A stretch of DNA of 64,000 nucleotides from Modicisalibacter tunisiensis (GTDB lineage Bacteria > Pseudomonadota > Gammaproteobacteria > Pseudomonadales > Halomonadaceae): positions 1,269,337 to 1,333,336 of the forward strand of contig NZ_JAGXFD010000001.1 of the NCBI RefSeq assembly GCF_020148005.1, given 5' to 3'. This document shows positions 617 to 30,439 of the stretch, in pieces. The translations under genes were made by a program, and so were the position numbers. The stretch's first letter is position 1. Each line of letters opens with the position of its first letter. Below the pieces are notes generated by a model. It searched no databases. It had not been told where the DNA came from and saw only the letters and a program-made list of their open reading frames with translations.

Positions 617-1363
617 TTACTCGAACAGGTGCGCCAGGCAGGGATTGATGTGATCGCTGAACTTCTCGGGGCGAAAGTCGGAGATCTGCGAGAGGGTTTC
701 CAGGTCGTTGATCTGGAAGCTCCGGCGTCGGCGGGTAATCAGTCCGCGCTCCGCCAGGTCGCTCATGGTGCGGCTGACGTGGACTTCGCTCATGCCCAGC
801 AGCATGGCCAGCTGGCGCTGGGTGAGGGGCAGCGTGAAGCTGTTGCCGGTGGTTTCCTCGATCCGCTTGAGCCGGTAGTAGACCTCCAGGGCGAAGTGGC
901 CCAGACGCGAGCAGGCGTCGTTGCTCAGGACGTTCACCAGGCGTTCGGTGATCACGCTCTGCTGTCGTGCCGCCGAGGCATGCAGCCCCAGCGCCAGGCG
1001 CGGCGACCGGGTGAAGAGATCCTCGAGGCGGACCGTCGGGAACGGGCAGATGACGCCATCGGTGAGCATGACGGCGGTGGTGTAGTGGCTTCTCGAGGTT
1101 GCATCGCGAATCCCCATCACGTCGCCCGGGAGGAAGATGTCGAGCACCTGCTGGGCGCCGTTCTCGGAGCAGTGAAAGGCATAGGCCCAGCCGCTGCGCA
1201 GGGTGTAGAGCTGGGTGGGCGTTTCGTGCGCCTCCCACAGCACCTTGCCCTTGTCGACCTTCCGTGGATCCTTCTCCAGCGACTTGAGAAGGGCGATGTC
1301 GGAGGCCTGAAGGTTCACGTGGTGGGCGAGGTTCCTGGTGACGCAACTCACTGGCTGCTGCAT
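617..1363 (-). CDS. Crp/Fnr-family transcriptional regulator
   Basis: The protein has 248 residues, usual for the family. It has an N-terminal beta-roll with LYTLRSGWA and QQVLDIFLPGD, a dimerisation helix and a C-terminal winged helix-turn-helix (LTQRQLAMLLGMSEVHVSRTM). The longest open frame begins with a GTG at 1369, but AAGGA lies seven bases before the ATG at 1363 and only one base before the GTG, so I chose the ATG. The single near-N-terminal cysteine does not make a four-cysteine Fe-S site. It is tandem with its paralogue at 1-438 and divergent from the amidase at 1568. The shared upstream region (1364-1567) is where it could control the amidase and ectoine-synthase-like gene; that is inference from orientation only. 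Confidence 0.88.
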   Translation of the reverse strand: MQQPVSCVTRNLAHHVNLQASDIALLKSLEKDPRKVDKGKVLWEAHETPTQLYTLRSGWAYAFHCSENGAQQVLDIFLPGDVMGIRDATSRSHYTTAVMLTDGVICPFPTVRLEDLFTRSPRLALGLHASAARQQSVITERLVNVLSNDACSRLGHFALEVYYRLKRIEETTGNSFTLPLTQRQLAMLLGMSEVHVSRTMSDLAERGLITRRRRSFQINDLETLSQISDFRPEKFSDHINPCLAHLFE

Positions 1364-1567
1364 GTCCACATCCTTGTGTTACTGCGCGTGTCGGTGGCGT
1401 GCCCGGCCGGGCCTGACCCGGCGAGCGCCGACATAAATGTACAAGAAGTTCTTCGGGGACGGGAGTCCGGCGGCCGGAATGTGCTTGGGGCGGTTGGCCT
1501 GCTCGTCGATAGTCCGCTACGGTTATCAGAGACAAAGGAGTGAACGCACGGATTCAGGGAGGATGAT
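1364..1567. promoter_or_regulatory. Divergent promoter region between crp-like gene and amidase
   Basis: About 200 bases separate the two divergent starts. On the plus strand a weak sigma70 candidate is TTGGCC at 1494-1499, an 18-base spacer and TACGGT at 1518-1523. Around 1434-1446 there is an ACAT-AA-ATGT dyad running into TGTACAAG. The octamer TGTACAAG also occurs in the dyad upstream of the small RNA (3531-3538). This is a candidate operator for a local regulator, but the evidence is thin. Confidence 0.35.
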
Positions 1568-2983: not shown

Positions 2984-3102
2984 ACCGCGGAATTCACCAG
3001 GTCGCCGCTGGGGCCGCAGGGCCCCGGTCGGCACGGGCCCGGCGTAGCGTGCCGCCGGCGGCCTGTCACCACGCCGACAGTCGAAGCAAGGAGGAGCGTT
3101 CG

Positions 3103-3504
3103 ATGATTGTTCGTGACCACAAGGATGCCGAAGCCAGCGCCGTCGACGAGGAGAAGTTCATCAGTCGCCGTTACACGCTGCGTGCCGACGGCATGGGCCA
3201 TTCCGTGCACGAGACTTATATCAAGCCCGGGCAGGCGCTGCACATGTGGTACAAGAACCACAAGGAGTCGGTCATCTGCATCGAGGGCGAGGGCCGGATC
3301 GAGGATCTGACCGAGGGTGGCTCCTGGGAGCTCAAGCCGGGGGTGCTCTATGCCCTCGACAAGCATCAGAAGCACATCCTCAGCAGCGAGAAGGGCATGA
3401 CGGTGCTGTGCGTCTTCACGCCGTCGCTGGTCGGCCCCGAGGATCACGATGCCGAGGGCAGCTATCCGCTCTACGATGACGACGGCACGCTGATCAAGCA
3501 TTGA
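3103..3504 (+). CDS. Orphan ectoine synthase-like protein (EctC family)
   Basis: This 133-residue cupin belongs to the EctC family, which cyclises N-gamma-acetyl-diaminobutyrate to ectoine. Hallmarks seen include CIEGEGRIEDL, the DKHQKHIL segment and VFTPSLVGPEDH. Aligned by eye to EctC, the metal ligands are all present: E55, Y83 and H91. The substrate-pocket residues T38, C103, F105 and E113 are also kept, while the usual Trp near residue 20 is Phe (F19). A GGAGG ribosome site sits before the ATG. There is no ectA or ectB beside it, so it is a solitary ectC homologue behind an amidase. EctC is known to have side reactions with other amino-acid amides such as glutamine, so it may make or open a related cyclic amidine. 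Function beyond the family is inference. Confidence 0.88.
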   Translation: MIVRDHKDAEASAVDEEKFISRRYTLRADGMGHSVHETYIKPGQALHMWYKNHKESVICIEGEGRIEDLTEGGSWELKPGVLYALDKHQKHILSSEKGMTVLCVFTPSLVGPEDHDAEGSYPLYDDDGTLIKH

Positions 3505-3509
3505 GTTCG

Positions 3510-3547
3510 TTGGACAGCCTGTAAAAAATTGTACAAGGCTTGTCCAA
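3510..3547. repeat. Long imperfect inverted repeat upstream of the small RNA
   Basis: The arms are TTGGACA-GCC-TGTA (3510-3523) and TACA-AGGC-TTGTCCAA (3532-3547), with an 8-base AT-rich centre; the arms match apart from two single-base gaps. It starts six bases after the ectC-like stop and its right arm overlaps the -35 element of the small-RNA promoter. It could be an activator or repressor site for the small RNA. The inner TGTAA...TACA dyad only loosely resembles the GacA/UvrY consensus. A transcription-end role for ectC is less likely because no U run follows. Confidence 0.6.
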
Positions 3548-3568
3548 TAAATCCATGTTGTCTATATT
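3540..3568 (+). promoter_or_regulatory. Sigma70 promoter of the small RNA
   Basis: TTGTCC at 3540-3545, exactly 17 bases, then TATATT at 3563-3568. Predicted transcription start is near 3575. There is no coding start at a sensible distance downstream, which fits an RNA gene. Confidence 0.65.
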
Positions 3569-3574
3569 GAAGGT

Positions 3575-3749
3575 GAAGCGGCGGCCGGGACGGCTGCCTC
3601 GCGACGCAAGGAAGCGTGGGCCAGGAAAGGCCCGGCATTGGCAAGGGGCACGGAACGGCGCCGTCACGACAGGGAGTCATGACCGCCAGGGAAGCCCGCC
3701 AGCACCCCCATCTCCCTTGAACCCCGTACCCCCTGCGGGGTTTTCTTTT
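3575..3749 (+). ncRNA. Probable CsrB/RsmZ-type sRNA (CsrA-sequestering)
   Basis: A stretch of about 175 nt between a good sigma70 promoter and a strong intrinsic terminator carries six GGA motifs (near 3588, 3610, 3624, 3652, 3673 and 3690). Four sit in the loop of a short perfect or near-perfect hairpin: GCC-GGGAC-GGC (3584-3594), ACGC-AAGGAA-GCGT (3604-3617), GGGCC-AGGAAA-GGCCC (3618-3633) and GAC-AGGGA-GTC (3668-3678), the last extended by outer GTCA/TGAC pairs. GGA presented in small loops is the defining feature of CsrB/CsrC/RsmY/RsmZ RNAs, which titrate the translational regulator CsrA/RsmA. No convincing reading frame with a ribosome site spans it. The exact 5' end is inferred from the promoter. 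Confidence 0.75.
3721..3749 (+). terminator. Intrinsic terminator of the small RNA
   Basis: Stem ACCCCG/CGGGGT with a nine-base loop, followed by TTTTCTTTT (the stem's last T begins this run). It ends the GGA-hairpin RNA. Confidence 0.85.
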
Positions 3750-3893
3750 GTCCTGGGTAGAGAAGACGATGGCGTGTCACCGCCGTCGAGGAAAATCGTG
3801 GCCCGCCATTTGAGTGGAGGCAAAAATATGGCATCGTTGTCTCCCCCAGTGCATGGGCGCCAGTGACGTGAAGGTAGCCAAGGAGGTATAGCG

Positions 3894-4064
3894 GTGGCGA
3901 CGGAGCTCGACAAGGAAGAGGCAAGGCTGGCGCAGAGTGACGCGGAGGCATACCTGCGTCTGGCCAATGCCATGAGCGAGGCGGGCATGGCATCGGTCAC
4001 GCCGCATTATCTGCGGACCCTGGCGGAACAGCTGCGCCAGGAGCGCGACTCGAAGGAGGCCTGA
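3894..4064 (+). CDS. Small hypothetical cytoplasmic protein (56 aa)
   Basis: The frame begins with GTG at 3894, preceded at a good distance by AGGAGG (3881-3886), and ends at TGA 4062-4064. The 56-residue product starts MATELDKEEARLAQSD and is acidic, with two probable helices (residues 8-30 and 36-52) separated by a short VTPHY turn. There is no signal peptide, cysteine or membrane segment. I do not recognise it. It lies between the small RNA's terminator and the tRNA-Thr promoter and is not obviously linked to either. The strong ribosome site is the main evidence that it is real. Confidence 0.6.
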   Translation: MATELDKEEARLAQSDAEAYLRLANAMSEAGMASVTPHYLRTLAEQLRQERDSKEA

Positions 4065-4119: not shown

Positions 4120-4195
4120 GCCGGCGTAGCTCAGCTGGTAGAGCAACGCACTCGTAATGCGTAGGTCGGTGGTTCGAGTCCACTCGCCGGCACCA
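4120..4195 (+). tRNA. tRNA-Thr (anticodon CGT)
   Basis: A complete cloverleaf: acceptor arm GCCGGCG/CGCCGGC, D arm with AGCTCAGCTGGTAGAGC, anticodon stem ACGCA/TGCGT around loop CTCGTAA (anticodon CGT, reading ACG), T arm GGTTCGAGTCC, and an encoded 3' CCA after discriminator A. Total 76 nt. Nothing on the 3' side looks like an integrated element, and I see no duplicated tRNA end. Confidence 0.97.
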
Positions 4196-5183: not shown

Positions 5184-5945
5184 CTATCCCGGTTCGATGG
5201 TGGTCGGCGGCTCGGCGGCCAGCAGCTGGGTGTCGCACTGCAGGTAGGCGCCATTGAAGCCGGCCAGGCGCTCCAGGCGGACCGGGTCGAGAATCTGGAT
5301 GTGGTAGTGCTGGCGACGCACCAGGCCCAGGCAGGCCAGGGATGAGAAGGTGCGGCTGATGTGCACCGGACTCATGCCCAGCGCATCGGCCAGGTCCTGT
5401 TGCGACAGGGGCAGCAGAAAGCCCTGCCGGGCATCGTTCGCCGGTTCCTGCAGCCGTGCGTGGCACTCGCAGAGAAAATGCGCCAGGCGCTCGCGAGCGT
5501 TGCGGCGGGCGATGCTCACCAGGCGCTCGGCGAGCATCGCCTGACGCTGGTTGGCAATGACGAACAGGGCGCTGCGCAGGCGCGGGGCGCGCTCGAAGAG
5601 CTCGCGTAAATGGGAGTAGGAATATTCGCTGATCTCCCCGTCGGTGAGCATCGAGACATCATTGCGTCGTGCGCCATCGGCCAGTTCGCCGAAGCCCAGG
5701 ATGTCGCCGGGCAGGAAGATTTCCAGCAGCTGGCGACTGCCGTCGGGCAGGTAGCGGGCGGAGCAGGCCCAGCCTTCCCTGAGCACCAGCAGGGTATCCG
5801 CCGAGTCGCCCTCGTGCCACAGCCAGTCGCCTGCCGAGACGGCACGGGGGGCACGTTTCATGTCGACGAGTAGGGCCAGCTCGGCCCTCGTCAGAGACAC
5901 TATATGCTGAAGCCGCCTTATCATGTGACTGCTAAAGTCCTGCAC
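5184..5945 (-). CDS. Crp/Fnr-family transcriptional regulator (third in the region)
   Basis: This 253-residue protein has the same architecture as the two at 1-1363: beta-roll with LLVLREGWA and RQLLEIFLPGD, a dimer helix (LFVIANQRQAMLAERL) and a C-terminal helix-turn-helix (LSQQDLADALGMSPVHISRTF). The longest frame starts with a TTG at 5963, but AGGAGA lies just upstream of the GTG at 5945, so I chose that; an ATG at 5924 lacks a ribosome site. It is divergent from ectD, separated by about 360 bases, and so is a candidate regulator of ectD. It lacks an Fnr-type cysteine cluster. Its C-terminal tail is longer than usual (about 25 residues after the wing). Confidence 0.87.
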   Translation of the reverse strand: MQDFSSHMIRRLQHIVSLTRAELALLVDMKRAPRAVSAGDWLWHEGDSADTLLVLREGWACSARYLPDGSRQLLEIFLPGDILGFGELADGARRNDVSMLTDGEISEYSYSHLRELFERAPRLRSALFVIANQRQAMLAERLVSIARRNARERLAHFLCECHARLQEPANDARQGFLLPLSQQDLADALGMSPVHISRTFSSLACLGLVRRQHYHIQILDPVRLERLAGFNGAYLQCDTQLLAAEPPTTIEPG

Positions 5946-6303
5946 GCACTCTCCTGAGCACAACCCGAAAAAGGGGCCAAGAAACCACGTTGGCCCGCGT
6001 CTTGCGATAACGTGGGTTTACTTTTTTGAGCGACTTTCTCTGCAGGTTCCTCGCCATTCGTGCTCGGCGCCAGGCACGGCGGCACGGCTTGTCTGGCGGC
6101 CAGTTGGCAGCGCGGCGACAGGATCCCCGTCGCCGGTACTTTACCGGCAAGCCTTTGGGGGGCCGAGAACGGTTGCAAGTTATGTTAAATATTCTAGGAT
6201 ACAGCCGCCAAGGCCAGACAAGGATTTCGGAAGACTCCGTGTGATTCACGCTGATGGCTGAGGACTGGACCTGAACCTGATCACAGGCACTGGAGGTGAT
6301 TGG
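5946..6303. other. Intergenic region between crp-like gene and ectD
   Basis: This 358-base stretch has no supported gene; short frames in it lack ribosome sites. It is locally AT-rich around 6173-6200, where the ectD promoter candidate lies. Nothing else stands out. Confidence 0.6.
6173..6200 (+). promoter_or_regulatory. Candidate ectD promoter
   Basis: TTGCAA at 6173-6178, 16-base spacer, TAGGAT at 6195-6200, inside the most AT-rich patch of the intergenic region. It would give a leader of about 100 nt before ectD. Confidence 0.5.
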
Positions 6304-28534: not shown

Positions 28535-30439
28535 ATGACCCAGTCTGTCGATAGCAATCGCCGCCGTCTGCTCGGCTTCATGGCGGGCGCGCCACTGCTG
28601 CCGCTCGCCGGTGGTCTCGCCGGCCTCGGTGCCAGCCGTTCCGCGGCCGCCGCGACCGAGGCCACGCTCGATTCCGTCAGCTTCCTGCCCATGGCGGCGC
28701 CCTCGCTGAGCAACCCGGTCGCCATGGCGACCACCACCATCGGCTCGGCCATGCAGCTTCACATGAGCGACGGCAGCAGCCGCCAGGTCAAGCTCGCCTA
28801 TCATCCGTTCTTCATCACCGGCGATCGGGTGCCCGACGGTCAGGGCGGCACGGTGGTCGCCGGCGGCTACTACGACATCGACAACCGGCCGATCCTCGAC
28901 CCCTCGGCCGGCAATCGCCAGTTCTTCTCCGACTGCCCGGACGGCACCAGCCTGCTGACGGTCGACAACGCCCGGGTCGACGGCGTGTACGGCAACCCCG
29001 TGTTCGCCGTCGTGCAGTTCGAATACACCACCCGCGACGGCGCCGGCGAGTCGATGTACGGCCGCCTGCCCTCGCCGATCGCGGTGCTGACCCTGGATCA
29101 GAACCCGGAAACCGGCGAGCTGACGCTGGTCAAGTACCACAATGTCGACACCTCGCCGGTGGGCGGGCTGTGGATCACCTGCGGCGCCAGCCTGTCGCCC
29201 TGGGGCACCCACCTGTCCAGCGAGGAGTACGAGCCGGACGCCGCCGCCCCCGACGACGAGTTCAAGAGCTACTGCCGGAACCTGTTCGGCGACGAGAACC
29301 GCGGCACGCCCTACAACTACGGCCACCTGCCGGAAGTGACGGTCAATCCGGACGGCACCGGCACCCTCGTCAAGCATTACAACCTCGGGCGTCTCTCCCA
29401 CGAGTTGATTCAGGTCATGCCTGACGAGCGCACCGTGCTGATGGGTGACGACGCCACCAACGGCGGCCTGTTCATGTTCGTCGCCGACAAGCCGCGGGAC
29501 CTGTCGTCCGGCACCCTGTACGTGGGCAAATGGACCCAGGTCTCGGGCAAGGGCCCCGGCGCCGGCGACATCGGCTGGATCCGTCTGGGCCATGCCGACA
29601 GCGCCGAGATCAAGCAGCTGATCGACGACGGTATCCAGGCGTCGGATATCATGGATATCCGCACCGAGGACCCGCAGGACGAGGGCTTCACCCGCATCCC
29701 CTACAGCGGCAAGATCAACTGGGTCAAGCTCAAGCCGGGCATGGAGAAGGCCGCCGCCTTCCTCGAGACGCACCGCTACGCGGCCCTGGTCGGCGCCTCG
29801 ATGGGCTTCACCAAGATGGAAGGCACCACCGTCAACGCCGCCGACAAGAAGGCCTATTCGGCCATGTCCTACATCTACAAGACGATGACCGACGGCAGCA
29901 GCGATATCCACGTCGAGGGGCCGACCGCCGGGGCGGTCTACGAGCACACCCTGCGCGGCGGCCAGAAGGACAGCGGCGGCCAGCCCATCGACAGCGAGTG
30001 GGTGTCGGTACACATGGCACCGCCGGCCAACCTCGTCGGCGAGGACCTGGCCGAACCGGACGCGCTGGGCAACACCGCCCATGCCGACCGCATCGCCAAC
30101 CCCGACAACATCAAGTTCTCCGAGGAGCTGCGCACCCTGTTCATCGGCGAGGACAGCGGCAACCACGTCAACAACTTCCTGTGGGCCTACAACGTCGACA
30201 GCGGCAAGCTCACGCGCCTCCTGTCCTGCCCCGCGGGCGCCGAGTCCACCGGGTTGCAGGCCGTCGACTCGATCAACGGCTGGACCTACATCATGAGCAA
30301 CTTCCAGCACCCAGGCGACTGGGAAAGCCCGCTGCACGACAAGGTCCGCGAGACGCTCGACCCCTACGTGCGGGCCAACTACAAGGACCGCTACGGCGCC
30401 GCGGTGGGCTACATCACCGGCATGCCGAAGCTGGGCTGA
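28535..30439 (+). CDS. phoX: PhoX-type alkaline phosphatase (DUF839), Tat-exported
   Basis: A 634-residue PhoX-family phosphomonoesterase, which uses an iron-calcium cofactor to release phosphate in the periplasm. The N-terminus NRRRLLGFMAGAPLLPLAGG is a twin-arginine-type signal, with cleavage expected near residues 35-40 (SAAAATEA). The family block SPWGTHLSSEEYEP with the preceding TCGAS segment, and the later ELRTLFIGEDSGNHVNNFLWAYNV, are typical of PhoX. Start ATG at 28535 follows AAGGA; upstream codons are non-coding. A Pho box lies 110 bases upstream, so phosphate starvation is the likely inducer. Confidence 0.92.
   Translation: MTQSVDSNRRRLLGFMAGAPLLPLAGGLAGLGASRSAAAATEATLDSVSFLPMAAPSLSNPVAMATTTIGSAMQLHMSDGSSRQVKLAYHPFFITGDRVPDGQGGTVVAGGYYDIDNRPILDPSAGNRQFFSDCPDGTSLLTVDNARVDGVYGNPVFAVVQFEYTTRDGAGESMYGRLPSPIAVLTLDQNPETGELTLVKYHNVDTSPVGGLWITCGASLSPWGTHLSSEEYEPDAAAPDDEFKSYCRNLFGDENRGTPYNYGHLPEVTVNPDGTGTLVKHYNLGRLSHELIQVMPDERTVLMGDDATNGGLFMFVADKPRDLSSGTLYVGKWTQVSGKGPGAGDIGWIRLGHADSAEIKQLIDDGIQASDIMDIRTEDPQDEGFTRIPYSGKINWVKLKPGMEKAAAFLETHRYAALVGASMGFTKMEGTTVNAADKKAYSAMSYIYKTMTDGSSDIHVEGPTAGAVYEHTLRGGQKDSGGQPIDSEWVSVHMAPPANLVGEDLAEPDALGNTAHADRIANPDNIKFSEELRTLFIGEDSGNHVNNFLWAYNVDSGKLTRLLSCPAGAESTGLQAVDSINGWTYIMSNFQHPGDWESPLHDKVRETLDPYVRANYKDRYGAAVGYITGMPKLG

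Follow-up and report, generated by a model that had tools for sequence, protein, structure and literature searches.

The 64-kb window, that is, the whole stretch of DNA that was analysed, carries a candidate Csr/Rsm-type sponge RNA (hereafter the window RNA) between two co-directional genes, an ectC-like gene upstream and a small open reading frame (ORF) downstream. The features of the locus are listed below in window coordinates.

617..1369, minus strand: Crp/Fnr-type regulator (PF00027 and PF13545), one of six close paralogs in the source genome
3103..3504, plus strand: ectC-like gene (ectoine synthase family; NF009806, 146.5 bits over cut-off; PF06339), upstream neighbour of the RNA
3520..3536, plus strand: TGTAAAAAATTGTACAA, possible activator site, identical in Halomonadaceae bacterium T82-2 although the flanks differ
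3540..3568, plus strand: sigma70-like promoter TTGTCC-17-TATATT (9/12 matches)
3575..3749, plus strand: candidate Csr/Rsm-type sponge RNA, about 175 nt, a predicted transcript assigned from promoter-like site, terminator, orthologs, covariation and profile test
3580..3598, plus strand: stem-loop 1, GGCGGCC-GGGAC-GGCUGCC, 7 pairs, with a GGA triloop in the 175-nt fold
3604..3617, plus strand: stem-loop 2, ACGC-AAGGAA-GCGU (fold)
3618..3633, plus strand: stem-loop 3, GGGCC-AGGAAA-GGCCC (fold, covariation)
3652..3654, plus strand: linker GGA, absent from Modicisalibacter coralii (ortholog alignment)
3668..3678, plus strand: stem-loop GAC-AGGGA-GUC (fold, covariation)
3690..3692, plus strand: last GGA (CAGGGAAG; AAGGATG in M. 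coralii; ortholog alignment)
3719..3749, plus strand: Rho-independent terminator, hairpin 3719-3743 followed by TCTTTT
3894..4064, plus strand: small ORF of 56 aa, downstream of the RNA (family search)
4120..4192, plus strand: tRNA gene, whose counterpart in the orthologs is tRNA-Thr(CGT)
5184..5963, minus strand: second Crp/Fnr-type regulator (profile match), 1.5 kb downstream of the RNA

The initial annotation described a 175-nt unit with a sigma70-like promoter, a terminator and six GGA motifs, four of them in loops, and our predictions reproduce these sites and this fold. The GGA motifs lie at 3588, 3610, 3624, 3652, 3673 and 3690; all four GGA hairpins appear in the minimum-energy fold of the 175-nt sequence, and the second is dropped in the 146-nt fold without the terminator. 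One promoter-like site was found against a shuffle mean of 0.2 (sd 0.5), and two overlapping terminator sites against 0.9 (sd 0.9). The element is thereby predicted to be a stand-alone intergenic non-coding unit with promoter and terminator. A protein family search returned no family match for the small ORF, and the reading frame overlapping the RNA matched no Pfam family.

Taken alone, the GGA-hairpin signature of the window RNA is within chance. A greedy count gave three non-overlapping GGA hairpins against a shuffle mean of 1.53, a value reached in 317/2000 dinucleotide shuffles, and 4–6 GGA hairpins occur elsewhere in the window in segments of the same 175-nt length. Folding energy is likewise indistinguishable from that of shuffled sequences (z = 0.00 for 175 nt; z = 0.41 without the terminator). 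What exceeds chance is the comparative evidence and not the single sequence. The part of the original proposal that is supported is a Csr/Rsm-type sponge RNA, whose GGA loops and stems are conserved in relatives.

Conservation and covariation at orthologous loci

The initial annotation placed the sequence in Halomonas; the nearest named relatives of the source are Halomonadaceae bacterium T82-2 and Modicisalibacter coralii. Both retain the order ectC-like gene, RNA, small ORF and tRNA-Thr(CGT), with the small ORF in the same position by alignment in these two and by eye in Halomonas sp. EAR18. The cross-genome comparison of GGA-loop pairs that had been suggested was informative: the T82-2 ortholog keeps 6/6 GGA motifs at 81.5% core identity and the M. 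coralii ortholog 5/6 at 62.3%. Both promoter hexamers are identical in T82-2 and altered in M. coralii; the terminator hairpin is near-identical in both, and TTGTCTA around −10 is also conserved. In EAR18, a related RNA (L025:3449-3607; 15.1 bits with the covariance model R1 described below) comes after the ectC-like gene, then a second RNA with clear Csr anatomy (3854-4000, 117 bits) and a Crp/Fnr-type gene; farther along lie the small ORF and, again, this tRNA. An ectC-like neighbour is thus common to the window, T82-2, M. coralii and EAR18.

The stems covary across these four species. Stem 1 pairs as GGCGGCC/GGCUGCC, GGUGGCC/GGCCGCC and GGCAAUC/GAUUGUC, and in EAR18 through six pairs as GGGAUC/GAUUCC, in all cases around a GGA loop. 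Of the 75 cells in the four helices, 89.3% can pair, compared with 20–39% when the helices are slid. In stem-loop 1, 96.4% of cells are paired and three pairs have changed on both sides; the position of stem-loop 2 is taken by a linker GGA in the wider family, and T82-2 retains only the two inner pairs of this stem. Five pairs changed on both sides, as many as in 7/500 shuffles, and the covariation score was reached in 0/500, in a test that uses four related sequences, which is few, and a structure taken from one of them. The number of pair types was unremarkable (175/500 shuffles). Loss of the GGA loops alongside retained coding potential had been named as one observation that would refute the proposal; the opposite was found, with GGA kept and the overlapping frame broken between the window and T82-2 by indels of 7 nt and 1 nt. 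In the aligned orthologs, GGA stays constant while the stems vary.

A coupling of the RNA to compatible-solute genes, also suggested at first, finds no support in gene order. A related RNA in genome G006, at 75% to EAR18, has no ectC-like gene in the 2.5–3.2 kb examined around it (L104, L083), and an R1 search near the ectC-like genes in L028, L029 and L031 found no such RNA; a sponge that works in trans, moreover, would not have to regulate adjacent genes. The same G006 locus bears on a cis-acting reading, in which the element would be a leader or 3′ UTR of the small ORF or of the ectC-like mRNA and no free RNA would exist. Its position between two co-directional genes would suit such a role, against which stand the promoter-like site of its own, the terminator ahead of the small ORF and the G006 relative that lacks a nearby ectC-like gene; we regard this reading as very improbable.

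The ectC-like gene itself gave separate observations. Its Shine-Dalgarno (window 3078-3105) lies inside a hairpin loop in the window, T82-2 and M. coralii and may be a CsrA site. When 16 other starts were folded, the hairpin did not recur as such, though some of them (L043, L045, L048) also looped the Shine-Dalgarno. The folding picture across starts is mixed, and the start of the ectC-like gene may or may not carry a CsrA site. Close relatives of the ectC-like protein (3103-3504), at 82–88% identity, come from records of the alphaproteobacteria Roseivivax and Tranquillimonas (L026, L027, L033, L037, L044), which suggests horizontal transfer of the gene.

A multicopy family of Csr-like RNAs in Halomonadaceae

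At the gathering cut-off, an Rfam search with the window RNA returned none of the families CsrB, CsrC, RsmX, RsmY, PrrB_RsmZ and TwoAYGGAY; at E up to 10 there were eight matches, none of them Csr/Rsm, which look like chance. The proposed check with CsrB, RsmY, RsmZ and TwoAYGGAY models was thus negative for the window RNA, as would be expected of an RNA that the initial annotation had called hard to find by similarity. Judged by these models, the window RNA falls outside the Csr/Rsm families of Rfam. BLAST of the window region against plasmids also gave nothing.

Weak BLAST matches of the window region included two RNAs from other genera (L007, L006) whose Csr anatomy is obvious, with repeated GGA-loop hairpins and a terminator; most of the other weak matches (L004, L005, L008-L022) resembled, by eye, coding regions or sequence without relation to it and were not used further. 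Searches with L007, L006 and the EAR18 locus yielded 66 candidate RNAs, some overlapping. The window RNA and its orthologs in T82-2 and M. coralii were removed from this set, as were five candidates (by hand) that overlapped others or were weak and 15 by length; of the 43 left, eight more were dropped by hand before the 35-row alignment A3 was made. A3 has a hairpin with a conserved GGA loop, in which 6/7 pairs have changed on both sides in some of the sequences (between 1 and 15, depending on the pair), as have 5/9 pairs of the terminator. The covariance model R1 was built from the 35 A3 loci; it excludes the window, T82-2 and M. coralii, and includes one source-genome paralog (614506-614670) and the second EAR18 RNA. 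R1 identified seven strong members in the source genome (48–95 bits, E 1e-22 to 4e-10), all on contig G000:C1.

3167987-3168135, minus strand: Csr-like RNA (R1)
3169111-3169245, minus strand: Csr-like RNA (R1)
614506-614670, minus strand: Csr-like RNA (R1), included in the model
2186768-2186914, plus strand: Csr-like RNA (R1)
764959-765107, plus strand: Csr-like RNA (R1)
2181554-2181738, minus strand: Csr-like RNA (R1)
2036303-2036444, plus strand: Csr-like RNA (R1)

Matches to R1 at E ≤ 1e-5 were present in 58/121 Halomonadaceae genomes, the source genome counted, and in 4/145 genomes of a sample of the order, three of which are Halomonadaceae. Genome G004 has 19 matches, or 17 distinct loci (L139-L155) once overlaps are merged; all 17 were inspected and contain 5–10 GGA each in the 150 nt examined. 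Rfam, applied to 26 related loci (among them L028, which contains no such RNA), matched nothing except tRNAs and one guanidine-II riboswitch.

With R1, the window RNA is the top match in the 64-kb window (10.4 bits, E 0.11), aligned collinearly over its full length; the runner-up, at the start of the ectC-like gene, has 8.5 bits (E 0.35). Its orthologs scored 15.9 bits in M. coralii (E 0.007), 15.1 in EAR18 (E 0.012) and 10.2 in T82-2 (E 0.24). Genome-wide the window RNA ranked 34th of 35 and was not significant (E 5.97), with 10.4 bits compared with 48–95 for the paralogs. A profile HMM of A3 without terminators (hmmsearch) gave the window RNA 13.1 bits, a score reached in 0/1000 dinucleotide shuffles; the corresponding counts per 1000 were 1 for T82-2, 0 for M. 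coralii, 5 for EAR18 and 9 for G006. With nhmmer they were 1 for the window RNA and 0 for each of the T82-2 and M. coralii orthologs, and the relatives in EAR18 and G006 were not reported. Trinucleotide shuffles reached the profile HMM score more often (window RNA 3, T82-2 4, M. coralii 4, EAR18 16 and G006 40 per 1000). Scanned over 4057 tiles of the window, the HMM peaked at 3576 (12.8), and tiles 3001-3076, at the ectC-like start, scored 12.0–12.2. Taken together, these comparisons make the window RNA a probable, though divergent, member of this multicopy Halomonadaceae family.

An alternative, a different type of structured small RNA that acts by base-pairing or protein binding and carries GGA loops by chance, would sit well with the unremarkable single-sequence statistics and with an R1 E-value of only 0.11. 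It would leave unaccounted for a GGA that is constant while stems change and the collinear likeness to a family whose Csr anatomy is clear, and we consider it decidedly unlikely.

Other loci of the family show further arrangements. At L106/L101 (G011:C35, about 29324-29556, minus strand), 68-nt direct repeats contain two GGA hairpins each, possibly a giant sponge RNA that grew through tandem duplication. Five tandem Csr-like RNA candidates lie within 1.5 kb at L089:1467-2908 (plus strand). The guanidine-II riboswitch (L087:1813-1863, plus strand) shares its locus with two Csr-like RNA candidates.

Upstream motifs and the proposed mode of action

The source genome encodes CsrA and a UvrY/GacA homolog (52% identity) at most 3 kb from two of the Csr-like RNAs. 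We then examined 68 upstream regions, a set obtained from the 66 candidates by dropping four and adding six source-genome RNAs. GacA boxes with at least 10/12 matches occurred in 18/68 regions compared with 1/64 controls, and the palindrome TAACCTAGGTTA with at least 9/12 in 39/68 compared with 2/64; both were present together in 14/68, including two source-genome RNAs (L103/L124, L127). Two of the seven source-genome Csr-like RNAs have a GacA-box-like site of 10–11/12. The palindrome ends about 23 nt before TANNNT (21 of 66 regions, aligned for motif shape and spacing), and from this spacing we infer a palindrome centre near −41.5. Of the 39 regions with the palindrome, which is written TAACCTRGGTTA for its occurrence upstream of many R1 RNAs, 26 have it 52–56 nt before the first GGA motif.

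The window RNA, its T82-2 and M. coralii orthologs and the EAR18 relative have neither GacA box nor palindrome (6–8/12). Upstream of the window RNA, the best matches to both reach 7/12, and TGTAAAAAATTGTACAA (3520..3536) is not a GacA box. Lacking this box, the window RNA is probably made under conditions other than those of the GacA-box members. The absence of both motifs could also mark a decayed copy, a former family RNA now losing its CsrA sites and promoter control, as could the low R1 score, the GGA missing in M. coralii and the stronger paralogs that could make the window RNA dispensable. Decay accords poorly with GGA retention of 5/6 at 62% core identity, with covarying stems, and with the conserved terminator hairpin and TTGTCTA around −10, and we hold it to be unlikely.

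We consider it likely that the window RNA works like CsrB/RsmZ, as a stand-alone CsrA-sequestering small RNA. Transcription would start near 3575, driven by a promoter belonging to the RNA itself, and stop at 3749, giving a molecule that displays GGA motifs in hairpin loops and linkers where CsrA dimers would bind; sequestration of CsrA would in turn release mRNAs from it. Alongside at least seven other family RNAs predicted in the source genome, the window RNA would be controlled separately from the GacA-box members.

The RsmX, RsmY and RsmZ RNAs of Pseudomonas are short, carry GGA in hairpin loops and linkers, end in a terminator and are preceded by a GacA box. The window RNA shares the short length, the displayed GGA and the terminator, and other Halomonadaceae members have GacA-box-like sites; it differs in lacking an Rfam match and a GacA box, and the copy number is far higher in some relatives. 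The sponge logic is that of Escherichia coli CsrB and CsrC, for which 18 and 11 CsrA sites are given in a 2020 review (PMC7366521), compared with six GGA in the window RNA. The same review describes RsmV and RsmW of P. aeruginosa, called P. aeruginosa-specific there, as Gac-independent sponge RNAs beside Gac-dependent ones (PMC7366521); they offer a precedent for Gac-independent sponges such as the window RNA, likened by control and not by sequence. Many copies are also known in Azotobacter vinelandii, with RsmZ1-7 and RsmY1-2, nine in one genome (PMC7366521, Table 1). The 17 distinct loci of G004 are about twice this number, the highest that we encountered in the literature, which raises the question of why a cell would carry so many CsrA sponges.

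In Table 1 of the review, the Csr/Rsm RNAs of Halomonas anticariensis are listed as unknown despite GacS/GacA and CsrA (PMC7366521), and the present analysis supplies testable loci for a gap of this type. We found no published Halomonadaceae Csr RNA in the open-licence PMC literature, and the family is apparently unrecorded. Halomonadaceae are used for ectoine and bioplastics production.

Crp/Fnr-type regulators beside the RNA genes

The Crp/Fnr-type gene at 617-1369 belongs to six close paralogs in the source genome (≥38%, itself counted), three of which lie within or at the edge of the window; a fourth (G000:C1:3168350-3169066) is flanked by two Csr-like RNAs. We compared RNA and regulator positions in 13 genomes, the source and 12 hand-picked as window relatives or RNA-rich genomes, with regulators listed at E ≤ 1e-15 and RNAs comprising 92 of 99 matches in the 12 genomes, seven source-genome RNAs and the window RNA. 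Among the matches listed, 18/97 RNA loci lay within 350 bp of a Crp/Fnr-type gene and 28/97 within 4 kb, compared with 0.26 and 1.47 expected under uniform placement with shared ancestry ignored. For the window RNA, the distance to the closest such gene is 1504 bp. The pairs come from nine genomes; G027, G093, G135 and G141 have none at distances up to 4 kb, which shows that the link does not hold in every genome. We found no prior report of a Crp/Fnr link to such RNAs in the open-licence PMC literature.

Crp/Fnr sites have a 5-4-5 form, and the palindrome can be read in this form as TTAAC-N4-GTTAA; that the Crp/Fnr-type regulators bind it is a guess. A tentative and rather doubtful extension would be an expanded Halomonadaceae Csr system with up to 17 sponge genes per genome, in which an adjoining Crp/Fnr-type subfamily would directly control the RNAs through TTAAC-N4-GTTAA near −41.5, either together with GacA or in its place. 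The window RNA, which has no GacA box and is surrounded by three regulator genes of this type, would then fall in a Gac-independent branch. The association with Crp/Fnr-type genes suggests that Csr control has an additional input.

GacA-box-like sites were also seen at individual loci outside these comparisons. In G004, they lie upstream of 12/17 loci at ≥9/12 matches and of 7/17 at ≥10, a raw count over these loci. L156 (G331:C74:138327-138464), an R1 match in another family of the order (E 2e-10), has one of 11/12 about 230 nt upstream of the match.
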